From positions 682,001-746,000 of the forward strand of contig JH720322.1 of assembly GCA_000231825.2 (NCBI GenBank): a stretch of DNA of 64,000 nucleotides. The letters run 5' to 3'. This stretch comes from Tetrahymena elliotti 4EA. Lineage: Eukaryota; Ciliophora; Oligohymenophorea; Hymenostomatida; Tetrahymenidae. Position 1 is the first letter of the stretch, and each line of letters opens with the position of its first letter. This document shows positions 32,241 through 56,907 of this stretch, piece by piece. The position numbers and the translations under genes were made by a program. The notes below the pieces were generated by a model that did no database searches, was not told the DNA's origin, and saw only the letters and a program-made list of their open reading frames with translations.

Positions 32241-35200
32241 ATGCTTTAAAAAACAAACAATTTAAAAAATAATAGAAACAATTAGCAAGTTAGTTATCCA
32301 TTTTTATTAAAGAATGGATTTGAATCAGTAATTAATTCAAAATAAGTGAATGAGATTGATGAAAAATAATAATTAGAAAGTCTAATTGAGAATAAGAATT
32401 TAGATTAAATTTGTAAGGATACCTTAATTTAAGTATAAACCAAGGTTAAAATTAAATTATATAAATATCTCAAAATATCAATAAGAAAAGGATAATAGGT
32501 TGAATTTTATTCACTTATTAACTTATTAAAAAAATCTAATCATTCTGATCTCTTATATGCATTAGCTTATAAAATAAAAAACTGCATAGAGCAAGTAGAT
32601 ATAACAATTATTAAAGAGATAGAAGAATTAATAAACTAAAATTCTAATATTGAAGCGAAATGCTTTTTAGATAAATAAATCAAAATTTAAAAGAATCTTT
32701 TAAATGATAAACACTATTTTAGTAATAGATTTTTTGAAGAAAATAAAAAATTCTATATTTATCAACCTAAAAGACCTTAAGCAGCTGTTACCAAAACTCA
32801 ATAGGTCAATAAAACCCATCATAAACAGAATTATTCAGAAGTTGTAGATGTTAACATATTGAATTTAACTGAAGCTTTAAAAAAGAAAAAAAAAGAAAAC
32901 TAAATAATACCCTTAGCCCAAAAAGCTCCTTAAATCATACAAGATGAGGATGGTGATGATAGAATATTTTGGAAAGGTACTTATACTAATGTCAAAATAT
33001 TATATAATATCGCAATTTAAAATGGAGTTTTGAAAGCTAATGACAAAGATAGATATTTAGTAGAAAAATTTCTTGATGGTAATGAATAATTTTTTACTAA
33101 CACCATTGAGGATATTTGGAATGGGAATAAGCTCTTTGGTAACTTTTTAACAGATCGTCTAATATCTGCTATCTATTGCAAAATTTCTAAGAAATAGCAT
33201 TTATGCTTTGATACCATTAAAAAATTGGAAAAATTCTTTGGTGGTATAGAGAGCACAACAAAATAAATATTAGGAATATCAGATCCTAAAATAATTGCAA
33301 AGAGTTTAATATAGAGTAAAAGTTTAGTAAATAAAGTCTTTTAAAATTCTGATGAACCAAAAATAATCTAAAAAATTGCTTAAGATCTCATATAAAATAT
33401 ATAAAATGGTACATTCGATACTAAATACATCAATCATGTTAATCATGTTATATAAATTCAAATATAAGAAATGAGAATAGAAGCTGCTCAAGCTTTTTAT
33501 AACTGTGCATTAAGAGATAATTCTTTGTTAAGTTAGAAGAGCATTGAACTCTTAGAGAAAAATCTTAATGATGAAGATGCTAAATTTCATGAATTAATAA
33601 TTAAAATACTGTCATTAAAGAAGAATTTAGAGGTAGACAAAACCATGTTTTTGTAATGTTTATGTGATTTAGAATAAAATAAGAATACTGAATTGGCTAT
33701 TTCATTTATAGTTAATTAAACTAAAGATAGTAAAAGAGTTTAAGAGTTATTTAATGATGACATAAAAGCAAGGTTAATAATGATATTGTTTTAGTAAAAT
33801 ATTAATGACAAAATAAAAATTCAATGTTGTGAGGCAATTAATAACTATCTTGTATGTGTTTGGAGTAAAGGTTTGACTGATTAGGAGTAAATTAATTATT
33901 GTAGATTGATTTTAAATACAGAAACTTAATAAGAACTTAAAGATAAAATTTTGAAGTCATTGCTACTTACATCAGAAAAAACAAAATTATCTCAAACAGT
34001 AATTTTATTATTAGTAGATAAATTTGAAACATTCAATGATGATTATACTGTTAGACTGGTAATCTTAGTATTAGGGAAGGCTGCCTAAAGTGGTTCTACC
34101 ATTAATCTAGATAAATTATCAAATAAACTTTCAGATGATCACATAGCAATAATTGAAGATACTGATATAAAATTTGAATCTTAGTATAGAGAAGATACAG
34201 ATTTTCTTTCGATCTCATAAATTGTTGCTAAAATATTTGTTGATACATAGCCAAATGAAAACATTTCAGAATCTGGAATTTTTAGCTTGGTTCAAGCTCT
34301 TAATAGTATTAATTAGTAAACAAGAATATAATCAGCTAAAGCTTTATATTTATTAGCTCATACAAAAAAACTAAGTGATTCTGTATTAATTAGTATTAGA
34401 AATTATATTAGCAATAATATTACTGAGGTATCATCTTACTCTACATTAGCCTATATAATAGGAATAAATACCCTAATTATATAAAATATTTCAGTATCTC
34501 CATCTCATCTTGAATATATTTTTTAAATATCAACTTTAGACGAATTAAATATTGAAGGATAAGATTTCACAGACTTGTTATTTGAAATTATTAGTTCAAT
34601 TCTGCTGAACTGGGATTTTGAAGGAATTTTAGATCAAAATGTGATTAAATTTTTGGATCATATTTTTTCTTATGAAAATGAAAAAATTCAAATAGGAGCA
34701 GCAAAAATACTCTAAAAATATACAAAAATGAAATAATAAATACCTCTTAATTTAATTTAATCAATAGAAAGTATACTTGACAAACCAGAAGCCTATTCTA
34801 TCACAATTAATGTACTTGAAAATATAATCAATAATGGCCAACCAGTTAATGAAAGATCTTTGTAAGCGTTTAGCGATATTCTCTACTTTTCAGATGATGA
34901 AACATTGAGACTTAATTCTTTAAAACTATTAGAAGTTGCTGATAACAATTAGGAGTTATCTGATGAAATATTTGTAAAATTAGAAATATAAAGATCAATT
35001 TAAAACATAAATTCTAACTAAAATGGGAGGAAAGACTCTTTTTCTTACTTAGTAACTAAAACCGAAGAAGGGTAAAAGCTACCAATCGATGGTTTCTTAA
35101 TGCTAAATAACAATATAGAGAATTATCATTCTTTATTAATTTTAAGCAATATATCTGAAAATGAATAATCGATTCCTGATTTTATAATAGAATAGCTTGT

Positions 35201-38200
35201 AGAAGAACTTAACCACTAATACCGTACCATACTAATTCAAATTTTTGCAAAAATGGCAAAAAATAATTAAAATCTACCATAAGAACTCTTACAAAAATTA
35301 GAAAATTCTTTAGAAGAAGAATTATTAACTGAAGAAGTATTGTCAATATTCGCTTATTAAATAAAATATGTTTAAAGTTTTTCAAATAACGTTGTAAATA
35401 AGATGTGTAAAATTTTCTTAACAACTAAAAATGAAAATTTATAATATGAATTACTCTTCGTTATTATCAATCTTATTGGAGAGGACAAGATAACTTAAGA
35501 TCTCATAAAAAAAGTATTAATTCATGGAATTACAAGATAAAACAATAAAATCATTATGAAAAGTATTGATGGATTTATCAAATATTCCTAATAATATAAT
35601 TTTGATAGTGAATGTACAAATTCTCTTGTAGAATTAGCAATTTAATAATCAAAAGAAGAACCTTTATATTAGGAAAACCTGAAATAATTACTTAGATCTT
35701 GTTAGCTTAATAATAAATAGTTAGCTAAATTAGAGCTAGCTAAATTAAATATTTAAAATTTTATTTTCAATTAAAGTGAATTTTTGAAGTAAATATCCAT
35801 ATTATAAAGTAAAAATCAATTGAATGAACTACTTCAATAAAATTTTGATATTTTAAATTAAATTATGAATGGTAAAGAAATTAAATTACAACAACAAGTC
35901 CTCAATATTTTACTTTAGTGTTAAAACAAGCAAGATATGCCTGATAAATTAATTAATAGCGTGGTTGTATTATCTGTCAGTACTAAAACAATTGAAATAA
36001 AAATATAATGTTAGAATTTAATCAATTTAATAAGTAAAACTGGTAAAAAACTTAATAAAGAAATTCTATAACTTGTAATTAGTGATGAAAGTGTTGATCT
36101 CCAATAAGATAAATCATAAATAATAGCTCAATATCAATAAATATAATTATAGACTGCTTTATCTTAGATGATTAATAATATTAGAGTATAAGGTAATAAT
36201 AGTGAGTTAGGAGTATTACTTAATGATATTTATCATAAATTTAGTTAGCCTTTCTTTCAATTTTGTAGTTAAGACATAGAGAATTTGCTAGACCTTTAAT
36301 TAAAATTTAAAAATTATTATGAGAGAAAGTTTTTAAAAATATTTTCATAAATTTTAATATATCATCCTTAGTATTGTTTTAACAAAAGAATTGTATCGAT
36401 AATTGAAGAAGCAATACTTTCCAGAATAATAAATGAAGATTTTATCATTATTATTAAAGCCTATAATAATGTTGTTAGATAGAAGTGTTTTCTAAACTTA
36501 GAAAAAGTATTAGATTTTTTGGTTGATAAATTACAAGAAAATGATCAAGAAAAAAACATAAATTTGGCTTTTCTTGAATGTTTAAGTAAAGCCGCAGTAG
36601 TATACAAAATAAAATAAAATTACTTATCTATCTTTGTAGCAAATATAAATAACAAAAAAATAATTGATAGAAGAGAATTAAGCTTATCATTTAAAGGATT
36701 GCTTGCCGCCTAAAATAGGGGTTGGAAATTAAGCAGTTTTAATGATTGGTGTAAATTTTACTTAAATTTTAATATTGGAGTATCAACTAATCAGGATTAT
36801 GAATTAATTGATTTAGTAATTTAATCTGAGTATGAGGATTTTAAACAGCTTCATCTTATACCTCAAAAAGAATGGAAGAGAGAAATATTGCTTTATGGCT
36901 TGCTAAAAAAATACCAATAAGATGAAAAAGATTTAATCCTTTCTCAGTTGCTCAAATTCAAAAAAGATCGCTCTAACTAAATTTTGAAATCTCTTTTAAA
37001 TGCTCAAGATGACTATGACCTATCCTTTCAGTAATTAAGTGAAATTATTTAATTTATTTAAATCATTGATCTTGAAACTACAAATAATTTGTTACTTAAT
37101 GGTGTTAATTGCCATTATCACCTTAAACTTAAGTGGATAGAGAAATTACTTTTAACAAAATTATAACATGAATTAAATCAATAATATTTAGAAAAACTAA
37201 TTTCTAAAATTTTCAATACATTTAACACTTAAGTAATTGAAAAATTGTTAAATTCAATAATAGAAATCGATAACTTCAGTGAATTTTCAGAATTATTAGA
37301 TTTTGCAGGACGAAATTTGATTGAAATTCATGATATAAATAATATCTAAAATGTTAGTGTGAATGAATTAAAAAGATCATTTGAGATATTATTTTTAATC
37401 AAACTTTTTAAAATATCAGCTAGAACTAATAAACTTCAAAAAACTAAAAAATATTTTGATCATCTTTTAGAAAGGGGATGGACTTATGAGCAACTAAATT
37501 CACTCTTTAATTAGCTTAAATCACAGAATGACTAAGAAAAAGTCTTCAAAGAAAAAACTCTCATCTAAATAATAGAAATTTTAGATGAATATAAAATACC
37601 TAAAAATAATTATTAAGAAATTTTAGCTTTGATGAAGATCGAAAATCCCATGAATTGGCTAAAAAAAGTTAATATGATTGCAGTTAAAAGTAATTTTCAA
37701 AGTGTAAGCCATGTCAAAAGTTTGAAAGAATTAATTGAAGAATTAAGAAGTTAAAATATTTAGAGCTAACTTATTGTAAATTTGTAAGATGATGTCTTAA
37801 TTAGATAAATTGAGTAAATCTAGAGCACTAGCTTAAATGAAAAAGTATCTATTTGGGATAGATAAAAAATTTTAGAATGGTCTCATTATGCTTAATCTAA
37901 TAAGGATAGCTTTAAAGATCCAGATTTTTAAATATAAGCCCTTGCTGTAATTAATAGAGCAAATTATTTGTAAACCAAATTTTATATGACAGACTCTTAA
38001 ATACTAACCTGCTTAATAATATTGAGTAGAAGCAGCTAAAAAGGAATGTTACTGTAAGTAGCTACTGGAGAAGGTAAATCTACTATAATTAGTGTACTTG
38101 CTATTTTAAATAGATTATTAGGTTAAAAAGTTGATATAATTACTAGTTCACCTGTACTTGCTGAAAGAGATGCTAAGGAAAAAGCAGGGCTTTATAATAT

Positions 38201-41200
38201 GTTTGGATTTAGTTGTGCAGATAATAATGATAAAAAATAATATTTTATGGGTGCTAAAGATTGTTATAAAAAAGATATTGTTTATGGAGAAGCTTCTTAA
38301 TTTCAGTTTGAAATTTTAAGAGATAATTACAGCTCACTTGGTACCTTAGCTGAAAGAAAATTTGAAGTAGCAATAGTAGATGAAGTTGACAGTATGCTTA
38401 TAGATGATAGCTCTAAAATAGCAAGACTTAGCTCTACTATTGCAGGCATAGATTAATTGTAGATTGTATATTACTTTATATGGTACAGATTGGTTGAAAT
38501 TAAGGATTATTTGATTGAAATAAATAATAAAATGTATTTTCTTATTGGTGAAATAAATTATGAGGAAAATAAATATATTTTAGTCTATACAGATTAAAGA
38601 GGATAAGAAAAAAAGATATCAGATTTAAAAGGCTATATTTAATAGAATTAAGATATAAGTGAGATCGGTTATTTCATTGAAAAAGATATTTTCACATTTA
38701 TCAAAGAAAATTTAGAGATATATATTGAAGAAATGATTGATTCAAAAAAAATCAAAATTCCCAAAAATTTTGAAGAATTTGTAAAAAAGCAGAGATCAGT
38801 ATGGATTCACAATGCTATCTTAGCATTACAATACCAAGAAAATATCCATTACATTATTCATGAGGGGCTAATAAAACCAGTAGATTATTTCAGTACTGGA
38901 ATTATTCAAAGCTCTACTCATTGGTCTGATGGTTTACATCAGTTTTTATAGATTAAGCACTCACTAAAAGTGACTTCCGAGACTTTGACAACAAATTTCA
39001 TTTCAAACATGGCTTTTTTTAAAAAATACTCTAGTAATCTAATAGGGCTTACTGGTACTCTTGGATCAGATAAATCAAAAGAGGTTTTATCTAAAGTTTA
39101 TAATGTAGACCTGATATTTATACCTAGTTAAAGAAAAAAATAGTTTTTAGAGTTATCAGAAATATCTGTTGCTAGTGAAATATAATGGCTTGAAGAAATA
39201 AAATCTTCTGCTATTAATGAAGTCTAAAAAGATAGAGGAGTATTAATTATTTGTGAAACTATTGAGGATGTGAAAAGAGTAGCAAATAATATCTAATTAA
39301 AATATAAATAAAATGCAGTGAAACTCTACACAATGAATAATATGAACCAAGAAAGAGGAATAGAAAAAATATATCCTGGAGAGATTATAATTGCTACAAA
39401 TTTAGCTGGTAGAGGTACAGATATTAAAACTGATACCATAGAATAGTTTGGTGGTCTTCATGTGATTCTCACCTTTATGCCATCTAACTAAAGGGTAGAA
39501 GAGTAAGCATTTGGTAGAACAGCAAGGCAAGGAAGATGCGGAACAGGTTAAATGATTTTATGTAATAAAATTAATAATAAAGCAACTAAAAAACTAAGAG
39601 ATAATTTAGAAGCACAAATATTAGATGAATTCATGCATAAAGAATTAAAGGCTATAGAAGTAAAAGATAAATTATTTGAACAATTTTGTAAATTAATAAA
39701 TACAATTCGTGATGACATAAGACATAATACTGGAATATTTGACAAATTTAAAAATTCAGTGATAAAAAATATTATGCCATCAGTTTATGAGATAAATTTA
39801 ATTGCGCTATTGAAGAATAGTGGTCTATGTTCTTACACATGATAAATGATAGTACTTTTCCTATTGATAAAGCGTTAGAGAGGTATTAACAGTTTAGTTA
39901 AAATATTGATTATGATTATAAAAATAAAAAAATTATAAAAAATCCTTATTATCATATTGCAATTGCATTTGATTTAGTTGTTGATGATTCTACTTTTAAT
40001 GACAATTACGAAAAAGCTATGGAACATTTTGATGAAGCAATTAAGCTAGATGAAGATTTTAGTGCTGCTGCTTTTGCAGGTAAGGCATGGCTTCTGCTTA
40101 AAGGTAGAGAAAGGATCATTGTTTCAAATAATTAGATCTAAGGTTATAAATAATAAGCCTTAGAATTATTAAAAAAGTCTTTAACTTTATTAAATGATGA
40201 AATGGCTTCTCTTTCTGCTACATTATAAATATTACAGCTTGCTAATACAGACACAAAAAGCGATTTATTTCTATAACTAGTTTATAAAACCAATATTTTA
40301 GGCTCATATGTAAATTGTTTAGAAAATACTGCAAAAGTTACAAAGTAATCACTTCTAATATTTGATATAACAATTATTTAAATAGATCATAGTTATTTTT
40401 CCAAAAGTAAAAAACTTGAATTTTTAGCAGGTACTTCATATTTTGATATGGATAAAAATAAATTAAGCGAAATTAAAGATAAGATGAATTTAGGCAAATA
40501 ATTTGAAATAACATTTAACGATTTAAGCTTAATCAAAAAAACAAAAGATTAAGCGATTGAGACTATTGAGGCTGGATTTTCTAACTTTATCTTAAATGAA
40601 GATTATAATAATATTAGCATTTATCTATTAGATTTAGATTCATAAATATTGTAATAAATGCTAAGTCCTGATATTGAAGTAAAAGATTTAAATAAAGAAG
40701 AAGCTCTTGCTTAACTTTAAGACAAATTTTTCTTTTTAAGTAGGCATCTTTTGCCTATACAATTTTAGCCTAATTCTTGTTTAATTAATTTAACGGTCAA
40801 AGATAACAATAAAGTGCTATGTGAACATAATAATTTGGAATTAAGTAAAGTAATTGACATTATTAAAAACAATTAAAATGATGGATCAAGTTTTAATTTG
40901 AATTTCAAAAATATAAATGAAATATCTAAATCTTTAAACTAAGAACTTTCAAATCAAGCATTAATCTTAGAGTTCCAAAACTTAGATCTAAATGCAGTTA
41001 GAAAAAAGATAGTTGATATAAAATATAATAATATAAGTATAGAAATATATGGGAAGAAAGATTAATTGCAAGCTGTTATGAATCTATTTAAAGATCCTAA
41101 AGTTAATAAAGTTCAATTATTAAACTATGGTAAAGATAATAATATTGTAGATATATCTTATTTAGTTAAAGAAATAAATGAAAAACTTAATAAAAGTTAA

Positions 41201-44200
41201 GAAAATAGTTTTTGCTTAAAATTAGAGAATTTGAATAAAGAATAAATAAATTAAATCTTAAATGTATGTGAAAATGCTATTTTCACTATTAGCTTTAAAT
41301 ATTTAATTCCTTTTGAAAATATTAATAAATTGAGAGAAGGAAAAATTAATGTAATCTTTGATAAATTAGAAAAAAATCATTCAATAAAACTTATTTCTCT
41401 TTTAAGAAAATAAAATTTAGATTTCAGTTTAAAATTTAAGAATTTAAGCTATGATTAGTTTAATAAATTAATCTAAAATGCGTAATTAGACCAAGAGAAT
41501 ATTGAAATAACTAAAATTAGAAATTTAAATTAATTGTTTAATAATGAAACTTAATTAACCTTAGAATTATCAGAATTTGCTTTAAGAGGAATTTATTATT
41601 TATTTGAGATTAATGAAAAAGGATTTATCCCTTGGTTAAATGTTGGAATTATTTTTTTGTTAGCTGGTATATAAATTGGAGCAGGTATTTATTTGAAGTC
41701 TACTGGTTTTGGAGTAATGATTGGTTAGGCTTTAATTACTGAGGGGGCATCAGATATTTTGAATGGCATTAGAATTATTTAAACTAGGAAATTTAATTGG
41801 AAAGATTACATGATTTAGAAATCAATAAGCTTGCTAATATCAGCTGTTAGTTTTGGATTTTAAAGTATTAATAATCAAACTAATACTATTTATAATGCTG
41901 CAAAAACTGAAATATATGAATAGGAAGCCATCTAAATTGCTAAAAATGGCAAAATAGTAACTAAAGTTATAGCTGAAACTGGAAAAAAGTTAATGTAATT
42001 TAATTAACTTAAACAGGCTGCATTTGAGATAGGTGAACATGGAGTAAGAGAAGTATTAAACAATATTTCACATTCTTTATGTAATTTAGGAATCGAGTAA
42101 TTCAAACCATAAATATTTGGATTCATATAAAAATAAGTTAAAAAAAAATTTTACAATTAAAATTTAAACAATTTAATTAGAAAAATGTATTGGTTAGATA
42201 ATTTAAGTAAATCCAATAATTATAACTAGAAGATACAAGATATTATTATTGAAATCACAAATCCATAAAACAGTTTTTTAAAAAGGACTTGGGAATCTAT
42301 TGGTCTTCCTTTATGTAAAGGTGTTTTGTCAGATAAAAGTTAATTAGAATCTAATTTAGGTATGTTAGTCAGAATAGGAGGTACAATAAAAGGAATTAAA
42401 GAGATTTTTATTTTAATTGATTAGATTTGTGATCAACTATTAAAAAAACTTTCATAAATTTCTTATGATGAATTAAAAATATCTTAACTTTTAAGCAAAT
42501 ACTGCCAAATTGAATAGTCTGATTCTAATTAAATTGTTGAAATATTAAAAAAGGAAGATATTATTCTTGTATAAGAAATTGATCATAAAAATAATCTTGA
42601 GTATGTTAATCCCTCAACTTATGAAATTGATTCAAATATATATTTATCTATGCAAAAATAAATCAAAAGTTTTAATGAGATTGATTTTGGTATCTATCAA
42701 AAATATAAAGATAGTGTAAATACCTTTTTAAAGTAATTGAGTGAAGGCACATCATCCATAAAAATTGAGGAAATTACTCCTGTAATAACATTAATATCTA
42801 ACTAAGTAACCTAGCAAATGATTTCCATCTTAAATTAGTAAATAATCTAACCATGGAGTAGTTATGGTATAGGTATTCTGACAGCTAAAATCTCAAATAG
42901 TATTCAAAATAATATGATAAAAAAAGAAATTATAAAAGATATAGATTATTAGAAAAAAAAGTTAGAAAATTTAAAAGAGAATGAAAATTTAACATAAGAA
43001 TAGTAGCTAGAAATAAATGAGATAGAAAATTATATTTAAAAAAGATATGATGAACTAAAATAATAACAAACATACTCAAAATAGATTTAAGGTGAATTCA
43101 ATAAATAAATTAATCATTAAAACTAGAGAGCAAATATATCAATTACTATTAAAGAATTAGTTAGTTGTGCTAATTGCATTATTGAAGTTTTACCAAACGA
43201 ATACAAATAAGGAACTGTTTTTAAAGATATTTTATCACTTCAATAAATTTATACTATGGATTAGATATTAAAACCATTTTTAAATATATTCTGGAAAATC
43301 ATCTAAATTAAAATAGATAATATTTTAGAATTAGAGCAAAAAAGAACAAGTTTGTATAAAAAAACTGAAAACATAAAAATTTCAAAAGATACTATTAATT
43401 TAGCCAGTTTAATCTATGAAGAAGATTATTAGTAAAAAATGGAAGAAAAGGGTTTTAAAGTAATTTAAAAAATTGATAGTTGGATAACTTAAAAATATGG
43501 TATAGTGGCAGCATTTATATAAAAAAATCATAAAATATATATAGCTACTTAAGGAACTAATTTAAAAAACATACAAACAATACTAGCTCAAATCATATTA
43601 GACATCAAAATTGGTGTTGGACTTTCTAATGAAGAAGCTATTAACGCTTTTAGTGATTGGATTTTAAGGGCTATACATAATCTAAATTTAGACTAAAGTC
43701 ATATAGAAGGGGTTGGACATTCTTTAGGGGGATATTTAATTATATCTGCTGCTATAAAAATAAAATAATTTTTTCAAAGAGTAGTGAGTTTTGATTCACC
43801 TAGACTAGAAGATAAAATGATAAATAAGTATGGTGAACCTAATTTTGAAATAATTAACTTTTAATCATCAATAATTGGTGTTATTAATTATAATTCTGAT
43901 CATAAAAATATAAAATTGATATAAATACCAAAATCCAATTAAAATGAATTAGAAAAACTTGAAGAAAAAAATTGTTTAGATTTCTTGAAATCTTTCTTTT
44001 TTGATGTTTGTTAAATTATTTTCTTAAACTAATTAGGATAAGATATATGTCAAAAAGTATTTTAGTTTATTTGCTCAAATGTCTTTAAAGAAAAAGGAGA
44101 GTTTTTGAAGATATATGAGAAAGCAAGTGAATATTTTTCATTCTTAATAACAAATTACAAATGTCACATAATGGAATATATTGAAAAAAACTTGGATTAA

Positions 44201-44215
44201 TATTTAGAAATTTGA
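32241..44215 (+). CDS. Giant SecA-like ATPase / TPR / alpha-beta hydrolase fusion, copy 1 (one frameshift)
   Basis: Length and frame give about 3990 codons if one missing base near 39801-39810 is allowed for. As written, the first ORF is 2533 aa and stops at TGA 39840-39842. A second frame of 1458 aa opens at an ATG overlapping that stop (39839-39841) and runs to TGA 44213-44215. Residues 1 to about 1880 are long helical, repeat-like sequence without a named domain. A SecA-type DEAD motor follows: ATGEGKST near 38061 (residue 1941), VDEVDSM near 38376, GLTGTLGS near 39049, ATNLAGRGTDIK near 39393 and GRTARQGR near 39513. Next come a TPR-like segment (EKAMEHFDEAIKLDEDF, near 40012), a hydrophobic glycine-rich hairpin (about 41630-41740), coiled coil, and a C-terminal alpha/beta hydrolase with GHSLGG at 43715-43732. 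No signal peptide was seen. Function is unknown. Confidence 0.88.
39801..39842 (+). other. Single-base frameshift in giant gene copy 1 with ATGA stop/start overlap
   Basis: Copy 2 reads ...AATGTAATTAGTGCTATAG (Ile-Ser-Ala) where copy 1 reads ...AATTTAATTGCGCTATTG, one base shorter. The shift leads to TGA at 39840-39842. An ATG at 39839-39841 in the distal frame overlaps it. In copy 2 that ATG is an internal methionine. Confidence 0.85.
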
Positions 44216-45031
44216 GAAATTATCAAAGATAAAAGGATATGATAAACAATATATTCATCAAAGAAAATGTTGTCCCTTACTTTATTAAAATTTTAAATTA
44301 CTTTCAAAACAATAATAAATGATTTATACAAAATTATGTAGGGTCTGTAACTATTTTTTTGTTGTTTAATCGTAAAAAATATGTAACTTAATATACTAAA
44401 AATCATAAAAAATTTAAGAATATGATTTCCCATTCCCCCACTTAACTAAATTAAAATATTTTTTATTATTTTTAAAATCATATAAAATTTAAGAATATAA
44501 TTCCAATTAACTAAATTAGAATATTTAATTTAATTAGGATATATTAAGAGTGAATATTATAAAAATTTACTTTTAATGTAGATGATGATTATTTTTCTTT
44601 CTAAAATAAAAAAATTTTTTGGAATATCATTCCTGATCACAATCAAATTAGAATAATTTATGCAATTAGAATATACAATAAGTGAATTGAATAAATTCTT
44701 AAGAAGTATAGATGGCTACTTTTGTTTCAAATAATCTACTTTCATGTTTTATTTAAATTTTATTGAATGATTCTTACTAATTACATGCTCTGTTTATTAG
44801 ATAAATTAGCTTATCCTCATTTCTTTCTGTAAATATTAATAAATCAACAATATATAAATACAATTAAATTGATAAGTTTTTATTCTAAACATTTAGAAAA
44901 CTAACAAAAAAGAGTTTTATTTCTTTACTTTGATAGAAGGATTCTTTAATTTAAAAATTGAAATCTTTTTTGATTTTTATAATTTATTTTATAATCAATA
45001 ATTGAGATTTCTGAAAAATAATCTAAGAAAA
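44216..45031. other. AT-rich spacer between the tandem giant genes
   Basis: About 815 bp. No coding frame was recognised. The final part (44938-44993) is homologous to the 5' flank of copy 1. It should hold the 3' end of copy 1 and the promoter of copy 2. Confidence 0.6.
44938..44993 (+). repeat. Duplicated 5' flank, copy 2
   Basis: Counterpart of 32161-32216, lying about 40 bp before the copy 2 start codon. It has a few substitutions and small length differences. Confidence 0.7.
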
Positions 45032-48000
45032 ATGGATTTATAAATTCAAAAAAATAAAAATATCAATTCATAAAGTTATAATCCAAAATACATAAGTGGT
45101 GAATTTAAACCAGCTTATAATTCAATTTAAAAGAATGATATTGATGAGAAATAATCACTAGAAAGGCTAATCGAGAATAAGAATTTGGATTAAATTTGCA
45201 ACAACATCCTTAATCTTTAAGTTTAAAATGTAATTAAAGTTAAAGTTTTTAAATTTCTTAAATAGTCAATAAGAAAAGGATAGTAGGTAGAATATTATTC
45301 CCTCATAAACTTATTAAAAAAATTTAATCATTTCTATATTTTGTATGCGTTAGCTTATAAAATAAAAAATTGCATAGAACCAGTAGATATAATAATTATT
45401 TAGGAGATAGAGGAATTAATAAGTTAAAATTCTAATATTGAAGCTAAATGCTTTTTAGATAAAGAAATAAAAATTTAAAAGAATCTTTTAAACGATAAAT
45501 GGCTTGAAAGAAAAAATAGATTTTTTGAAGAAAAAGAGAAATTCAAAGTTTATTAACCAAAAAGACTTTAAGTAGCTGTTACAAAAACTCAATAAGTTAA
45601 TAAGACTCATTATAAACAAAATTATTCTGAAGAGGTAAATGTAAACATATTGAATTTAACTGAAGCTTTAAAAAATAAAAAATAAAAAAAGAAAATAATT
45701 CCATAAGCTGAGAAAGTTCCTGAATTAATAAAGGATGAAGCTGGTAATGATGAATCGTTTTGGAGTGGTACTTATACTAATGTCAAACTATTATATAATA
45801 TCGCAAATTAAAAAGGAGTTTTGAAAGCTAGTGACAAAAATACATATTTAGCAGAAAAATATTTTGGCGGGAATAATTTTTGGTTTACTAGCAACATTTT
45901 AGACACCATTTTTAGAGACACTCTCTTCGGTATCTTCATAACAAATCGTCTTATATCTGCTATTTATTGCAAAATATCATAGAAATAAGATTTATGTGAT
46001 AAAGTCATACAGAAACTGGAATTATGGTTTAGTGATTTAGAGAGCTTAAAAAAGTAAATACTTGGAACCTCAGATCCTATACTAATTGCATAGAATTTAG
46101 CAAAGTGTAGAAGTTTAGTAAACAGATACTATTAGAATTCTAATGAACCACTCATAATCTAAAGAATTGCTAAAAATCTCATTTCAAATGGTACAAGAGA
46201 TACTGATTATATCAATAATTTTATATAAATTCAAATATAAGAGATGAGAATAGAGGCTGCTCATGCTTTTTACAACTGTGCGTTAAGAAATAATACATTG
46301 TTAAATAAGGATAGGATACTGCTCTTAGAGAGAAGAGTTAATGATCCAGATACAAAATTTAGAGCATAAATAATGAAAATATTATGTTTAAATGATAACT
46401 TAGGAGTAGACTATAAAGTCTTATTCTAGTAATGTCTTAGTGACTTAGAATAAAATACAAATACTACATTTGCTATTTCATTTATAATTAACTAAACTAA
46501 AGATATTAAAAGGTGCTAAGAGTTATTTAATGATGAGATAAAAGAAAGGCTATGTAAGATTTTATTTTAGTAAAATTTTGATGTCTAAATAAAAATGTAA
46601 TGTTGCGAGGCAATTAATAACTATCTTGAATATTTTTGGAGCTAAGGTTTGACTGATTAAGAACAAATTAATTTCTGTGGTTTGATTTTAAATATAGAAA
46701 CAAATGAGGAACTTAAATTTGAAGCTTTGAAGTCTATACTACTTACATCAGAAAAGAGAAATTAATTAACCTAAACAATAATTATACTATTAGTAGATAA
46801 TATGGAAATATTCAATGATTATATTGTTAGACTTATAATCTTAGTTTTAGGGAAGGTTGTAAAAAATAGTTGCAATATAAGTCTAGATAAATTATCAAAT
46901 AAGCTTTTAGATGATGATATAGCTATAATTGAAGGAGCTGATATCAAATTTGAACCTTGGTCAAAAGAAAATCAAGATTTTCCTTCTATCTCATAAATCG
47001 TTGCAAAGATATTCGTGGAAACATAGCCAAATGAAAACGTTTCCGAAATTGGATTTTTTGGATTGATTTAAGCTCTGAATAGTATAAATAAGCAAACAAG
47101 AATATAATCAGCTAAAGCTTTATATTTATTAGCCCCATCAAAAAAAGTAAGTGATTTAGTTTTAATCAGTATTAGAGATTATGTTAATGATCAGATTACT
47201 GATGTCTCTACTTACTCTATATTAGCATATATTATAGGAATAAATACCCTATTGATGGAAAAAATTTCTGTTTCTCCTTGCCATCTCGAATATATTTCTA
47301 AAATATCCACTTTGGAAGAACTGAAGATTGGAGAAGAGGATTTCACAGACTTATTATACTAAAATATTTTATCAACTCTACTTCAATGGAATATCAAAGA
47401 AACTTTTGATCAAAATGTTATTGAATTTTTGTATCATATTTTTTCAAATGAAAATGGAAAATTTTTAATTGAAGCTGCAAAAATACTCCAAAAATATACA
47501 GAACTAAAATTTTAAATCCCTGCTAATTTAATTTTATCAATAGAAAATTTACTTGAAAAACCAGAAGTCTATTCTATCTCAATTAATATTCTTGAAAAAA
47601 TAATCCATAATGGCCAAGCAGTTAATGAAAGATCTTTGTAAGCATTTAGTGATATTCTCTACTTTTCAGATGATGAAACATTGAGACTTAATTCTTTAAA
47701 ACTATTAGAAGTTGCTGATAACAATTAGGAGTTATCTGATGAAATATTTGTAAAATTAGAAATATAAAGATCAATTTAAAACATAAATTCTAACAAAAAT
47801 GGGAGGAAAGACTCTTTTTCTTACTTAATAACTAAAACCGAAGAAGGGTAAAAACTACCAATCGATGGTTTCTTAATGCTAAATAACAATATAAAAAATT
47901 ATCATTCTTTATTAATAATAAGCAATATTTCTGAAAATGAATAATCAGTACCTGATTATATAATAGACTAGCTTGTATAAGAATTTAACCCTAATCACTA

Positions 48001-51000
48001 ATACCATTCCATACTAATTCAAATTTTTGCAAAAATGGCAAAAAATAATTAAAATCTACCAAAGGAACTCTTGCATAAATTAGAAAATTCTTTAGAAGAA
48101 GAATCATTATCTGAAGAAGTATTATCAATATTTGTTTATTCAATAAAATGTGTTAAAAATTATTCAATAACTGTTTTAAATAAGATGTGTAAAATTTTCT
48201 TAATAACTAAAAATGAAAATCTTTAATATGAATTATTATTCGTTATTATAAATCTTATTGGAGAGAACAAAATAACTTAAGACCAAATAAAAAAAGTATT
48301 AATTAATGGAATTACAAGATAAAACAGTAAAGTTATAATGAAAAGTGTTGATGGATTTATCAAATATTCCTAATTGAATAATCTTGATAGCGAATGTTTA
48401 GATTTTCTTGTAAACTTAGCAATTTCACAATCAAGTGAAGAACCTTAATATTTCGAAAACCTCAATAAATTACTTAGATCTTGCTAGCTTAATAATAAAT
48501 AGTCAACTAAATTGGAGCTAGCTAAATTAAATACCTAAAATTATATTAATAGTCAAAGTGAATTTTTGAAGTAAATATCTAAATTATAAAGTAAAAATGA
48601 ATCTAATGAACTACTTCAATAAAATTTTGATATTTTAAATTAAATTATGAATAGTAAAGAAATTAAATTATAACAGTAAGTACTCAATATTTTACTTTAG
48701 TGTTAAAACAAGAAAGATATACCTGAAAAATTAATTAATAGCTTGGCCGTTTTATCTGTCAGCACTAAAGTAATTGAAGTAAAAAGATAATGTTAAAATT
48801 TAATCAATTTAATAAGTAAAGCTGGTAAAAAGTTTAATAATGAAATTCTATAACTTATGATTAGTGATGAAAGTGTTGAAATACAATAAGGTAAATCATA
48901 ATATGAATAAATATCATTACAGACTGCTTTATCTTAGACGATTAACAATATTAAAGTATAAAGTAATAATAATGATTTAGAAATATTATTTAATGATATT
49001 TATCATAAATTTAGATAACCTTTCTTTCAATTTTGTAGTTAAGATATAGATGATTTGCTCAATCTTTAATTACAATTTAAAAATTCTTATAAGAAAGAGT
49101 TTTTAAAAATATTTTCATAAATTTTAATTTATCATCCTTTTTATTGCTTTAACAAAAGAATTGTTTAAAAAATTGAAGAGTAAATACTTAAAAAAGTGAT
49201 AAATGAAGATTTTATAATTATTATCAAAGCCTATAATAATGTTGTGAGATAAAAATGTGTTTTAAACTTAGAAAAAGTTTTAGATTTTTTGGCTGATAAA
49301 TTATAAAGAAATAATCAAGAAAAAAATATAAATTTAGTTATACTTGAATGTATAAGCAAAGCTGCAGAAGTCTACTAAATAAAATAAAATTGTTTATCTA
49401 TTTTTGAAGCAAATATAAATAATCAAAAAAAAATTAATAGAAGAGAATTAAGCTTGTCAATAAAAGGTTTGCTTGCAGCATAAAAATGGGGTTATTAATC
49501 AAACAGTTTTAATGAATGGTGTAGGTTTTATTTAAATTCCTGCTTTGGAGTATAATAAATTAATCACGACTTTGAATTAATTGATTTATTAATTTAATCA
49601 GAGTATTAGAATTTTAAATAGCTTCTTCTTAAACCTCAAAAAGAATGGAATAGAGAAATATTGCTTTATGGCTTACTAAAAAAATACCAATAAGACGAAA
49701 AAGAGTTAATTTGTTAAAAATTGCTCAAATTTTAAAGCAATCCATCTAACTAAATTCTGAAATCTCTTTTAAATATTCAAGATGATTAAAATTTACCCTT
49801 TGAGTAGCTAAGTGAAATAATTTAGTTTATTTAAATCATAGATATTTAAATAACAAAAAATTTGTTACTTAATAATGTGAATTACCATTAAAATCTTAAG
49901 TTAAAGTGGATAGAGAAATTACTTCAAACAAAGCTGTAACATGAAATAAATCAATTCTATTTAGAAAAGCTAATTTCGAAAATTTTCTATAAATTTAATA
50001 CACAATTAATCCAAAAATTGTTGAATTCAATATTAGAAATCAATAACCTCAGTGAATTCTCAGAATTACTAGATTTTGTTAATTAGAATTAAATTGAAAT
50101 ACATGAAATAAATATTTAAAATGCTAGCGTCAATTAATTAAAAAGATCATTTGAGATATCATTTTTATTTAAATAAATAAAGATATCAACACAGACTTCT
50201 TTTTTTAAAAAGATAAAAAATATTTTGGATCATCTTTTAGAAAGGGGATGGACATATGAGCAACTAAATTCACTATTTAGTTAGCTTAAATCACTGAATG
50301 ACTAAGAAAAAATCTTCAAAGAGAAAACTCTCATATAAATAATAGAAATTTTAGATGAATATAAAATACCTAAAAATAATTACTAAGATATTTTAGCTTT
50401 GATGTAGTTCGAAAATCCCACGAATTGGCTAAAAAAAGTTAATATGATTGCAGTTAAAAATAATTTTCAAAGTGTAGGCCATGTTAAAAATTCGAAAGAA
50501 TTAATTGAAGAATTAAAAAGTTAAAATATTAAGAGCTAACTTATTCTAAATTTGTAAGATGATGTCTTAGTTAGATAAATAGAGTAAATCTAGAGCATCA
50601 GCTCAAATGACAAAGTTAATTTTTATAATAAATTTTAGAGAATAAATTATGTAATTTCTATTTGGGATAGATAAAACATTTTAGAATGGTCTCATTACGC
50701 TTAATCTAATAAGGATAGCTTTAAAGATCCTGATTTTTCAATAATAGCACTTGCTGTGATTAATAGAGCAAATTATTTATAAACCAAATTTTATATGACA
50801 GACTCTTAAATACTAACCTGCTTAATCATTTTGAGAAGAAATAACTAAAAAGGAATGTTATTGCAAGTAGCTACTGGAGAAGGTAAATCTACTATAATTA
50901 GTGTACTTGCTATTTTAAATAGATTATTAGGTTAAAAAGTTGATATAATTACTAGTTCACTGTACTTGCTGAAAGAGATGCTAAGGAAAAAGCAGGGCTT

Positions 51001-54000
51001 TATAATATGTTTGGATTTAGTTGTGCAGATAATAATGATAAAAAATAATATTTTATGGGTGCTAAAGATTGTTATAAAAAAGATATTGTTTATGGAGAAG
51101 CTTCTTAATTTCAGTTTGAAATTTTAAGAGATAATTATAGCTCACTTGGTACTCTGGCTGAAAGAAAATTTGAAGTAGCAATAGTAGATGAAGTTGATAG
51201 TATGCTTATAGATGATAGCTCTAAAATAGCAAGGCTTAGTTCTACTATTGCAGGTATTGATTAATTACAGGTTTTATATTACTTTATATGGTACAAATTG
51301 GTTGAAATTAAAGATTATTTGATTGAAATAAATAATAAAATGTATATTTTTATAGATAAAATCAATTACGTGGAAGATAAGTATGTTTTAGTATACATTA
51401 ATGAAAAAGGATAAGAAAAAAAGATATCTGACTTAAAAAGCTATATTGAAGAGAATTAAGATATTAGTGAAATAGGGAAGTTAATTGAAAAGGATATTTT
51501 CACATTTCTTCAAGAACATTTAGAGAGATTTATTTAAGAAATACTTGAATCAAAAAAAATAAAAATTCCCAAAAATTTTGAAGAATTTGTAAAAAAGTAG
51601 AAACCAGCTTGGATAGAAAATGCTATTTTAGCAGTGCAATATAAAGAAAATATCCATTATGTTATCCATGAAGGTTTAATAAAACCAGTGGATTATGTCA
51701 GTACAGGAATTGTTCAAAGTTCTACTAATTGGCCTGATGGCTTACATCAGTTTTTATAAATAAAGCACTCACTGAAAGTGACTTCGGAGACTATGACAAC
51801 AAATTTCATATCAAACATGGTTTTTTTTAAAAAATACTCTAGTAATCTAATAGGACTTACTGGTACTCTTGGATCAGAAAAATCAAAAGATGTGCTATCT
51901 AAAGTTTATAATGTAGACCTAATATTTATACCTAGTTAAAGAAAAAAATAATTTATTGAGTTAACAACTGTATTGACTGCAAATGAAAAAGAATGGCTTG
52001 AAGAAATAAATACTTCTGCAATTAATGAAGTCTAAAAAGATAGAGGCGTTTTAATAATTTGTGAAACTATTGAAGATGCAAAAATAGTTGCAAATAATAT
52101 TTAATTATAATATAGACAAAAAGCAGTTAAACTCTACACAATGAATAATATGAACCAAGAAAGAGGAATAGAAAAAATATATCCTGGAGAGATTATAATT
52201 GCTACAAATTTAGCTGGTAGAGGTACAGATATTAAAACTGATACCATAGAATAGTTTGGTGGTCTTCATGTGATTCTCACCTTTATGCCATCTAACTAAA
52301 GGGTAGAAGAGTAAGCATTTGGTAGAACAGCAAGGCAAGGAAGATGCGGAACAGGTTAAATGATTTTATGTAATAAAATTAATAATAAAGCAACTAAAAA
52401 ACTAAGAGATAATTTAGAAGCACAAATGTTAGATGAATTCATGCATAAAGAGTTAAAGGCTATAGAAGTAAAAGATAAATTATTTGAATAATTTTGTAAA
52501 TTAATAAATACAATTCGTGATGACATTAGACAAAATATTGGAATATATGACAAATTTAAGAATTCAGTAAAAAGTTTGATAAAAAATATGATGCCATCAG
52601 TTTATGAGATAAATGTAATTAGTGCTATAGAAGAATAGTGGTCTATGTTCTTACACATGATAAATGATAGTACTATTCCTATTGATAAAGCACTAGAGAG
52701 GTATTAACAGTTTAGTTAAAATATTGATAATGACTATAAAAATAAAAAAATTATAAAAAATCCTTATTATCATATTGCAATTGCATTTGATTTAGTTGTT
52801 GATGATTCTACTTTTAATGACAATTACGAAAAAGCTATGGAACATTTTGATGAAGCAATTAAGCTAGATGAAGATTTTAGTGCTGCTGCTTTTGCAGGTA
52901 AGGCATGGCTTCTACTTAAAGGTAGAGAAAATTTTATTTTTTCAAATAATTAGATCTAAGGTTATAAATAATAAGCTTTAGAATTATTAAAAAAATCCTT
53001 AACTTTATTAAATGATGAAATTGCTTCTCTTTAAGCTATTTTATAAATATTATAATTTATTTCCACAGATACAAAAAGTGATTTATTTAAATAATTAGTT
53101 AATAAAATTAATATTTTAGGCTCATATGTAAATAGTTTAGAAAATACTGCTTTGGTAACTAAGAAATCGCTAAGATTATTTGATATAACAGTTATTAAAA
53201 AATAATTGAAATCTCAATTAGCTACTTCTTATTTTGATATGGATAAAAACAAATTATGTATAATTGAAGATAAGATTAATTTAGGTAATGAATTTGAAAT
53301 ATAATTTAATGATTTAAGCATAATAAAAGAAAAGACTGATTAAGCTATTGAGACTATTGAGGCTGCTTATTCTAAAAATTTCTTATTTTAATCTATCTTA
53401 AAAGAGAAATACGATGATATTAGCATTCATTTATAAGATTTAGATTCATAAAAATTTCAATAAATGCTAAATCCTGATATTGAAGTAAAAGATTTAAATA
53501 AAGAAGATGCTATTGCTTAACTTTAAGACAAATTTTTCTTTTTAAGTAAGAATCTTTTGCATAAAGAATTTTAGGGTAATTCTTATAAAATAAATTTAGT
53601 TATCAAAGACAGCGATAGGCTGATAAATACATATAATAATTTAGATGTAATCTAAGCAATAAATATTATTTAAAATGATGAAAATGACTTTTCACAATTT
53701 AGCTTAAACTTCAAGAATATAAATAAAAGATCTAAATAGTTAAACAAAAAACTTTCAAATTAAACTATTATCATTGAGTTTCCTAACTTAGATTCTAATG
53801 AAGTAAGGCAAAAGATTTATGATATAAGGTAAAATAGTATTAGTCTAGAAATCTAGGGAAATAAAAATTAATTGCAAGCTGCTATGAATCTTTCCGAAGG
53901 TGATATTGTTCAATTATTAAGTAATGAAAAAGATAAAATTATTATTGAAACATTATATCGAGACGAAGCAAATGAAAGGCTAAATAATAGTCAATAAACT

Positions 54001-56907
54001 AGTTTTTGTTTAAAATTAGAGAATTTAAATAAAGATAAGATAAATTAAATCTTAAATGTAAGTGGAAATGCTATTTTCGCTATTAGCTTTAAAGATTAGA
54101 TTCCTTTTAAAAATTTTAATTTATTGATTGAAGGAAAGGTGAATATAACGTTTGATAAATTAGGAGAAAGTAATTCAAAAAAGCTTATTCCTATTCTGAG
54201 AAAATAAAATTTAGATTTTAGCTTTAAATTTATAAATTTAAGTCATAATTAATTGTATAATTTAATCTAAAGAGCTTAATTAGACCAAGAAAATATTGAA
54301 ATAATTAAACTAAGAACTTTAAGTGAGTTATTCACTAATGAAACTCAATTAACCTTAGAATTATAAGAATTTAATTTTAGAGGTTTTCATTATTTATTTG
54401 AGATTAATGAAAAAAGATTTACTCCTTGGTCAAGTATTGCAATTGTTTTTGCATTAGCTGGGATACAAATTGCGGCAGGTATTTTTTTAACCTCTACTGG
54501 TGTTGGAGTAATGATCGGTTAAGCTTTAATTACTGAGGGTGCAGCAGATATTATAACTGGTTTAAGAGCTATTTACACAAGGAAATTTAGTTGGACAGAT
54601 TATATGACTTAGAAAGCAATAAGCTTAGTGATATCAACTGTAAGTATTGGAGTTTCAAAAATTAAAAGTGAAATAAAAGCTCTTTATGGTGCTGCTAAAA
54701 CTGAAGCATGTTAGAATGTAGGTACCTAATTTATTTAAAAATCTACTAAAATAACTAAAACCTTCGCTTCCTAAACTGGAAAGAATTTAACATAAAATGC
54801 ACTCAAACAGACTGCATTTAAGATAGGGGAACATGGGCTAAGAGAAGGATTAAATAATATATCCCATTCTTTATGTAATCTAGGAATAGAGTAATTCAGA
54901 CCATAAATATTTGAATATGTATCAGAAAATGTTAACTAACAATTTTGTAATGAAAATTTAAATAATCTAATCAGAAAAATGTATTGTTTAGATAATTTAA
55001 GTAAATCCAATAATTACAACTAGATGATAGAAAATATTGTTATTGAAATTACTAATCCATCATCCAGCTTTTTATAAAGTACTTGGGAGTCTATAGGTCT
55101 TCCTTTATGTTAAGGTATTTTGTCAAAAAATAGCTAATAAAATTAAAATTTAGGTATGCAAGTAAGAATAATGGCTACTTTAAAAAGTATTTATGGGATT
55201 ATAAATTTAATTAATAAGATTTGTAATTAGCTATTATTAAAACTATCCTAAATTTCCCATAATAAATTAAAAATATCTTAACTTTTAAGCAAACATTGCC
55301 AAATAAAATAGTCTGATTCTAATTAAATTGTTGAGATATTAAAAAAGGAAGATGTTATTCTTGTATAAGAAATTTATCATAAAAATTATCTTGAATATGT
55401 TAATCCCTCAGCTTATGAAACTGATTTAAATCAATAAATATCTTTGTAAAAATCAATAAAAAGTGTTAGTTAGATTAATTTTGGTTATTATCAAAAATAT
55501 AAGAATAAGGTAGATTCTTTTTTAAAAGAATTAAATAATGGTACACTATCAATAAAATATGAGGAGATGAGTCCTATAATTACATTAATATCAAACTAAA
55601 TTACCTAGTAATTAATAGCCATCTTAAATTAGTAAATAATATAACCATGGAGTAGTTATGGTATAGGTATTCTGATCACTAATATCTCAAATAAAATTCA
55701 AAATAAGATGATAAATAATGAAATTAAAAAAGATATAGAAGATTAGAAAAATGAATTATAAAATTTAAATGAAAACTAAATTTTAACATAAGAATAGCAG
55801 AATCAAATAAAAGATATAGAAGCTCATATTTAAGAAAGATAAAATTAACTTAAAGAGTAGTAAAAATACTCAAAATAAATTGAGTATATATCTAAGAAAT
55901 GTATTAATCATTAAAAATAGGAAACAAAGAAACAAAACAATAATTAAGATTAGGATAGTAAATAAGGAAAAATTTTTGAGGATATTTAGTATTTTTTATC
56001 GTTTTAAAAAAATTTTAGTTAAGATGAAACATTAAAAGTTTTTAAAAATATCTTTTGGGAATTTGTTCAAAGTAAATTAGATAAAAATGAAGAAATTGAG
56101 GAAAAAATGATTTATTTTTAATAAAATTAAAACATAAAAATTTCTAAAGAAACTATTAATTTAGCCAGTTTAATCTATGAAGAAGATTATTAGCAAAAAA
56201 TGGAAAAAAAGGGTTTTATAGTACTTGAAAAGATTGATCCAAAAATAACTAAAAAATATGATATAGTGGCAGTATTTGTTAAAAAAGATGATAAAATATA
56301 TATAGTTACTAAAGAAACTAAATACAAAATATAACATTTGATAATGGATTTCAAAATTTACTTTGGAAATTCTAATGAAAAAGCTATTAATGCTTTGAGC
56401 AATTGGATTTAAAGAACTATAGATAGGCTAAATTTAGATTAAAGTCATATAATAGGGGTTGGACATTCTTTAGGAGGTTATTTAATAATGTCTGCTGCAA
56501 TACAAATAAAATAATTTTTTCAAAGAGTAGTTTGTTTTGATTCTCCTAGATCAGATGAAATGATAATTTAGTATGGAGAACCTAATTTTGAAATAATTAA
56601 CTTTTAATCATCAGTAATTGGTGCTATTAATTATAATTGTGATCTTAAAAATATAAAGTTGATATAAATACAAAAATCTAATTCTGAAAATAAATAAAAT
56701 AAAATTAACTTGAAACCTATCATACTAACTACTTGTCAATTTTTTTTGGATAATTATTTAGAAAAGGGGAAAATCTAAAAATTATTTTCTTTGATTTGCT
56801 AAAATTATGAACAAGGAGAAGAGGTAATTAATTATATCTCAGATAACTTAAATAAACACAAAATGGAGTACTTTCATAAAAATTTGGATTAGTATTTAGA
56901 GAATTGA
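45032..56907 (+). CDS. Giant SecA-like ATPase / TPR / alpha-beta hydrolase fusion, copy 2 (one frameshift)
   Basis: Tandem paralog of the preceding gene, same orientation and domain order, about 3958 codons if one missing base near 50960 is allowed for. As written, the first frame stops at TGA 51320-51322 (2096 aa), just after the SecA Walker A motif ATGEGKST (50870-50893). The remaining domains lie in another frame, open from about 50960 to TGA 56905-56907 (first ATG 51007). They include VDEVDSM (near 51186), ATNLAGRGTDIK (near 52203), GRTARQGR (near 52323), the TPR-like block (near 52840), the hydrophobic hairpin (near 54430-54540) and hydrolase GHSLGG (56461-56478). A 39-nt in-frame insertion relative to copy 1 lies near 50612-50655, and the coiled-coil region before the hydrolase is shorter. 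Preserved coding downstream of the shift argues against old decay. Confidence 0.86.
50950..50966 (+). other. Single-base deletion in giant gene copy 2
   Basis: Copy 1 has AGTTCACCTGTACTTGC where copy 2 has AGTTCACTGTACTTGC, one C fewer, in an otherwise near-identical stretch between SecA motifs I and Ia. The shifted frame ends at TGA 51320-51322. Confidence 0.9.

Follow-up and report, generated by a model that had tools for sequence, protein, structure and literature searches.

The window analysed here, a stretch of 64,000 nucleotides (nt) from the ciliate Tetrahymena elliotti 4EA (G000:C30:682001-746000; guanine-cytosine content about 23%), carries a tandem pair of giant genes, each of which joins a SecA-type motor to a lipase-like C-terminal tip. 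The anatomy of the pair and the family to which it belongs, as described below, are nearly certain. There is about an even chance that the two products are eukaryotic SecA-motored giants whose carrier portion is homologous to a polymorphic-toxin carrier of intracellular bacteria. A broader and more tentative proposal is that a machine for toxin delivery, driven by an ATP motor and of rickettsial or chlamydia-like kind, has been domesticated in eukaryotes (ciliates, rotifers, arthropods and a tardigrade) and that its C-terminal payloads are swapped, the pair of the window being armed with a lipase-like payload. The family itself is already known; for the toxin-carrier logic and the lipase-like tip, no earlier report was found in the open-licence literature.

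Architecture of the gene pair

Gene 1 (32241-44215; 11,975 nt) and gene 2 (45032-56907; 11,876 nt) lie on the forward strand, are read with code 6 and comprise about 3960-3990 codons each. Their DNA is 83-85% identical over most of its length. TAA and TAG serve as glutamine codons: in the stretches counted, 196 TAA and 50 TAG (246 together) stand in frame in gene 1 and 201 and 50 (251) in gene 2, and TGA occurs 0 times in either. The coordinates, sizes and genetic code given in a first-pass annotation of this DNA held on re-reading. Both proteins are built in the same order from a helical N-terminus, the SecA-type motor, TPR, a beta/alpha solenoid, a hydrophobic hairpin and the lipase-like tip.

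The motor of gene 1 (37584..39536, forward strand) contains ATGEGKS at 38061, DEVDSM at 38379, TNLAGRGTD at 39396 and GRTARQGR at 39513. That of gene 2 (50870..52344, forward strand) extends from ATGEGKS (50870) to GRTARQGR (52321-52344) and spans the frame break of this copy. In gene 1, three Pfam models score above cut-off (SecA_DEAD 1.4e-37, P-loop_SecA 5.6e-9 and Helicase_C 3.8e-8), the scores of the two motor lobes being 129.9 bits for PF07517 (SecA DEAD) and 36.3 bits for PF21090 (second lobe). All 24 PDB matches of the motor at an E-value (E) of <=0.01 are SecA. The Pfam and PDB results bear out the earlier identification of a SecA-type motor, and a check for a non-SecA helicase family, which was run, did not refute it; a generic helicase was rejected on the same 24 of 24 matches. 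The DEAD motor, the second ATPase lobe and the key motifs are shared with bacterial SecA, but the wing/scaffold domain is undetected and the NCBIfam SecA equivalog models give at best 187 bits against a cut-off of 862, the cut-offs of the SecA models all being at least 725. A housekeeping SecA was rejected on these two grounds. The preprotein cross-linking domain PF01043 reaches 21.4 bits in gene 1 (cut-off 23.5), is not listed for gene 2 and lies above cut-off in the relatives P0007, P0012 and P0066. The genome, searched as 90 Mb in 134 contigs, contains three SecY-family matches at two places, which we read as those expected for Sec61.

The lipase-like tip occupies 43370..44215 of gene 1 (GHSLGG at 43715, FDSPR at 43790, H at 44165) and 56131..56907 of gene 2 (GHSLGG at 56461, FDSPR at 56536, H at 56857), on the forward strand in both. 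Profile-profile comparison aligned it with seven Lipase_3 proteins of the genome at a probability of 96.3 (E 2e-9, 47 columns), the control comparison giving 0.15%, and this bears out the earlier claim of a hydrolase-like tip in the same gene as the motor. The tip has the nucleophile elbow GHSLGG followed by F-x-SPR, both features of class 3 lipases, and the D of FDSPR and the C-terminal H are conserved between the copies; a motif resembling DIVP, which holds the class 3 lipase Asp, was seen by eye in neither copy. No Pfam family lies above cut-off in the tip, Lipase_3 itself scoring 11.6 bits in gene 1 (cut-off 22) and not being listed for gene 2. A hydrolase profile built from the two sequences gave 13 matches with E of 0.03-0.93, too weak alone to count; judging by their names, all 13 are presumably alpha/beta-hydrolase domain proteins. 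In the PDB this profile found 5 proteins at E<=5; the top one is not a hydrolase, and three of the others are. Foldseek on the tip model returned 59 matches, 0 of them at E<=0.001, and a region search for the tip returned 0 at E<=0.01 among 7209 candidates.

Between motor and tip, gene 2 encodes a TPR domain (52600..53169; model residues 28-217), a beta/alpha repeat solenoid (53179..54411; residues 221-631) and a hydrophobic two-helix hairpin (54427..54579; residues 637-687), all on the forward strand; the hairpin of gene 1 was placed at 41630..41782 of the same strand via a motif and its likeness to gene 2. The first-pass annotation had named a TPR-like stretch and a membrane-like hairpin, and both are recovered: TPR lies below the Pfam cut-off but is present in the structure model with a mean predicted local distance difference test score (pLDDT) of 78, and the hairpin, which alone exceeds the hydropathy threshold when the frames are read correctly, forms two helices in the model. 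Foldseek on the mid-region model gave 306 matches, 0 at E<=0.001.

Relatives and exchange of tips

Relatives were sought with the second half of gene 2, which matches 3783 proteins at E<=1e-3 out of 7986 candidates scored. Among the 120 matches listed are bdelloid rotifers, an ostracod, an amphipod, a springtail, a tardigrade and a sandfly, as well as Paramecium, two Tetrahymena species and a Rickettsia endosymbiont. Databases name such SecA-domain giants of animals and protists 'protein translocase subunit SecA'. Across 84,980 prokaryote species (GTDB), a scan gave 20 loci from 57 pattern matches; some loci come from one genome, and the count is too low because only two short patterns were used. 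The loci belong to Rickettsiales (12), Amoebophilaceae (3), uncultured Alphaproteobacteria (2), Coxiella (1), Neisseriaceae (1) and a Gammaproteobacteria bin (1). Arcanobacter is taken here to belong to Rickettsiales, and 16 of the 20 loci fall in groups known to be intracellular. A normal SecA is also present in all 9 bacterial genomes checked, the source of 9 of the 20 loci. A scan of a viral collection added 2 loci; the contigs of L049 and L050, filed as viral, look like those of chlamydia-like bacteria because the L050 contig encodes a Protochlamydia outer membrane protein (3.3e-19).

The set compared comprises 153 relatives, some of them redundant: the 120 listed proteins, 25 bacterial/viral-contig rows and 8 paralogues from the same genome. 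At E<=1e-4 the motor is matched in 151, the mid-region in 112, the hairpin region in 113, the N-terminus in 45 and the tip in 0. The motor count is so high by construction, since the relatives were gathered by motor, and the two without a motor match are pieces that lack it. The N-terminal helical region, HEAT-like by eye in gene 1 (32241..37583, forward strand), is matched in 0 of the 25 bacterial/viral-contig rows. By sequence comparison, the motor, together with the hairpin and mid-region in part, is common to the window pair and the toxin carriers. As judged from the segment matches, the C-terminal tip differs among the relatives, and the join of motor and hydrolase is one case of such a carrier. 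The Tetrahymena thermophila protein P0004 has the window genes as its best matches in the genome (52-55% over segments holding the motor); its record stops where the tip region starts and may rest on an incomplete gene model.

A Pfam toxin domain lies above cut-off in 3 of the 16 bacterial/viral-contig C-termini scanned, namely Colicin_D (2.7e-18, L039) and WHH (1.5e-13 in L040 and 1.7e-16 in L049); a further one has Cytotoxic just below cut-off, and the environmental protein P0107 ends in WHH (5.6e-12). L049 and L050 share 10.3 kb at 96% identity, followed by a partly shared junction, beyond which the last 160 or so residues are unrelated and the next genes differ. The junction occurs twice in L049, the second time with a different tip, which is the layout of an orphan cassette. 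SUKH-1, a member of a known immunity family, comes after each of the two WHH loci whose context is known (L049, 3.7e-23; L040, 1.9e-19). As read from these loci, the tip swap between L049 and L050 together with the SUKH gene is a polymorphic toxin layout, and the presence of immunity genes suggests that the bacterial tips would hurt their maker or its kin. In some bacteria, then, the carrier is probably a toxin carrier. A conserved carrier, a variable C-terminal tip, an adjacent immunity gene and orphan cassettes, as in L049/L050, are also the layout of Rhs/CDI-type polymorphic toxins; unlike these, the carrier here is a SecA-motor protein, and the ciliate pair has neither a recognised immunity gene nor an orphan tip. 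An Otu-like reading of some animal tips is a guess, since Pfam OTU was found in 1 of 6 members (5.8e-4) and 0 of 3 PDB matches (E<=1) are OTU. Four animal C-termini of nuclease-like look were scanned and gave no Pfam match at E<=0.1.

Phylogeny and selection

For a quick tree, 159 motors were cut out, duplicates were removed and the set was thinned at 70% identity to 86 rows. The tree separates family rows from 8 canonical SecA rows (support 100) and places the window motor in a clade of 40 rows (support 100) made up of animals, ciliates and environmental rows, with 0 of the 17 bacterial/viral-contig rows; two T. elliotti paralogues from contig C10 group with T. utriculariae elsewhere in this clade. 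Outside it, the sandfly motor pairs with Megaira (support 100) and a rotifer-bearing group joins Amoebophilaceae (support 100). The pairing of the sandfly protein (P0066, Lutzomyia longipalpis) with Megaira reflects either recent transfer or contamination. The P0066 record contains two SecA motors. The branching is as expected if genes passed several times between eukaryotes and intracellular bacteria, in a direction that the tree does not fix, and the link to horizontal transfer and conflict made in the first-pass annotation is judged right.

Between gene 1 and gene 2, the ratio of nonsynonymous to synonymous substitution rates (dN/dS) is 0.215 (95% 0.15-0.31) in the compared motor part and 0.695 (95% 0.46-1.05) in the hydrolase, with 0.40 in the N-terminus, 0.41 in TPR plus solenoid, 0.50 in the hairpin region and 0.62 in the linker. 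Selection thus weakens toward the tip. This pattern would be expected of a delivery protein whose payload changes, but a tip under relaxed constraint would give it too.

Proposed mechanism and competing explanations

In the proposed mechanism, the solenoids and TPR would hold a target or a chaperone, the hairpin would insert into a membrane, and the SecA motor, cycling on ATP, would feed the C-terminal tip into or across the membrane that the hairpin contacts, where the delivered hydrolase would attack lipid or ester bonds. In the ciliate the machine would most likely, as a best guess, be used against ingested or resident bacteria or rival cells. Such ATP-driven delivery in the ciliate is conceivable, though it falls short of probable. 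A toxin-delivery machine may have been adopted by the host, because related motors carry toxin domains in some intracellular bacteria.

Several observations weigh against this reading. The wing/scaffold domain is the part of SecA that acts on the preprotein. Its model PF07516 is not listed for the window genes at E<=1 and at E<=0.001 finds 0 matches in the genome as opposed to matches in 10 of 14 control genomes, although a highly diverged copy could escape; as a result, threading is without support from homology and the motor protein is not established as a SecA translocase. A structure prediction of the tip by AlphaFold from two sequences was unsuccessful (pLDDT 43), and each assembled window copy has one frame break. 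No orphan copies of the tip were found, only the two window copies matching in the genome (E<=0.01), and no immunity gene was recognised beside the pair, the 816 bases after gene 1 lying outside the scan; in the open reading frame (ORF) after gene 2, where introns are possible, no family was found. As for the relatives, 13 of the 16 bacterial/viral-contig C-termini have no Pfam toxin above cut-off, among them L032, which is cut by the contig end. A family above cut-off was found in 4 of the 10 genes scanned after tips, two of these being SUKH and the others DUF6980 (L049, third gene) and DUF7674 (L044). When the 83 tips were clustered by single linkage at E<=1e-3, 70 of them fell together, a joining that we put down to a shared linker; the window tips must belong to these 70, since they occur in none of the other groups. 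Segment matches were used instead of this clustering and of motif-based tip cutting, which yielded 20 rows only. A further complication is the rotifer protein P0090, in which a Ulp1/RickCE-like peptidase precedes the motor and is not C-terminal.

The pair could also encode a domesticated ATP-driven unfoldase or remodeller with a lipid-handling tip, engaged in ordinary trafficking or phagosome work after loss of the attack function. This is rather unlikely, as a housekeeping part should be conserved and the tip was not found in P0004, with the caveat on its gene model given above. Decay of laterally acquired genes that have no present function would agree with the single frame break per copy, yet it is improbable in view of the dN/dS of 0.215 in the motor, the 0 TGA stops in the stretches read and the paralogues that run in a single frame; the breaks themselves may be assembly errors. 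It is very improbable that the motor works on nucleic acid as a superfamily-2 helicase: Helicase_C is indeed common to these helicases, but the PDB matches are SecA throughout and SecA_DEAD is by far the top Pfam match. Should the carrier deliver its tip, intracellular bacteria and their hosts would share a toxin injector that is ATP-driven and consists of a single chain, and the family would offer a direct example of symbiont weapons adopted by hosts. With the reading proposed here, the SecA-domain giants of animals and protists gain a testable role.

Relation to known systems

The earlier reading stands as regards the SecA motor and the hydrolase tip and was incomplete in that eukaryotic SecA giants have been known since 2013 (PMC3639933). 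The accessible parts of that report describe a eukaryotic secA clade and name Tetrahymena thermophila among the matches, so that there is no novelty in a ciliate SecA motor as such. They also describe two secA-domain genes of Wolbachia wBol1, wBol1_1091 and wBol1_1092 (4,488 and 11,829 nt), which have full-length insect matches and the second of which is under purifying selection (PMC3639933). The window genes resemble these giants in great length, in the SecA domain and in a eukaryotic clade apart from prokaryotic SecA; they differ in that tip exchange, a toxin or a hydrolase is not mentioned in those parts of the description (PMC3639933).

From the portions available of other reports, Amoebophilus effectors carry SecA-like helicase-related domains, and lipase-like hydrolases and Otu peptidases stand in the same effector list (PMC3482391). 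SecA is listed there among C-terminal domains, as opposed to the carrier with exchangeable tips seen here (PMC3482391). SecA is also listed in a module of phage WO (PMC5062602), a SecA-DEAD protein is listed for Legionella (PMC4256840), and in the Rickettsia polymorphic toxins the consulted part gives SecA only as a neighbouring gene (PMC9111745). Giant actinobacterial toxins with SecA-like ATPase domains, predicted to aid toxin secretion, are the nearest published idea, among the sources as far as seen, of SecA in toxin delivery (PMC8195603). No report of the SecA-giant family as carriers of exchangeable tips, or of the hydrolase tip, was found in the open-licence literature. PADLOC models of anti-phage defence gave no match at E<=0.01 for the two pieces submitted.

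Reading frames, neighbouring genes and paralogues

The giant genes of the first-pass annotation stand as a tandem pair and in their size, but neither is one open frame in the assembly. In gene 1 (all frames on the forward strand) the first frame, with the helical N-terminus and the motor, covers 32241..39842, its homologous reading stopping near 39.8 kb, and the second (39827..44215; 1462 amino acids) runs from TPR to the hydrolase tip. In gene 2 the first frame (45032..51322) holds the N-terminus and the start of the motor, its homologous reading stopping near 50.95 kb, and the second (51007..56907; 1966 amino acids) holds the remaining motor through to the tip. The sites of the frame change differ between the copies (window 39800-39842 in gene 1 and 50945-51007 in gene 2). 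No GT-AG intron was seen at either when the joints were read by eye, which leaves an intron unsupported as the cause; the breaks may be assembly errors or real. In each copy a single frame runs through TPR, solenoid, hairpin and hydrolase tip. As both copies have frame breaks, they cannot settle whether there is one protein or two.

Contamination was rejected on account of the 246 and 251 in-frame TAA/TAG codons and of neighbours that are ordinary nuclear genes. Pfam families were found in 3 of the 10 neighbouring ORFs scanned: a helicase, which its S1, DEAD and HA2 domains lead us to regard as Prp22-like, an ion channel and a piece of an adaptin.

The 25 SecA_DEAD matches of the genome (E<=0.001) are spread over 11 contigs, and paralogue regions were inspected from 4 of the 10 contigs other than that of the window. 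Each of the two C10 paralogues reads through in one open frame (3782 and 3859 codons, counted from stop to stop); they share the carrier of the window genes but have other tips, without the hydrolase tip. A different architecture is seen in three or more giant genes at C7:1176618-1243428 (L019-L026), with a P-loop GTPase-like N-terminal domain, a long helical middle and a C-terminal SecA-like motor; in the two scanned, MMR_HSR1 is above cut-off in one and AIG1 below cut-off in both. Contigs C32 and C8 (L013-L018) carry shorter SecA-like genes with a low-complexity N-terminus, a motor and parts that look TPR- or hairpin-like by eye, without the hydrolase tip. Five spaced partial SecA_DEAD matches at C76:327162-380400 perhaps mark a further tandem array.

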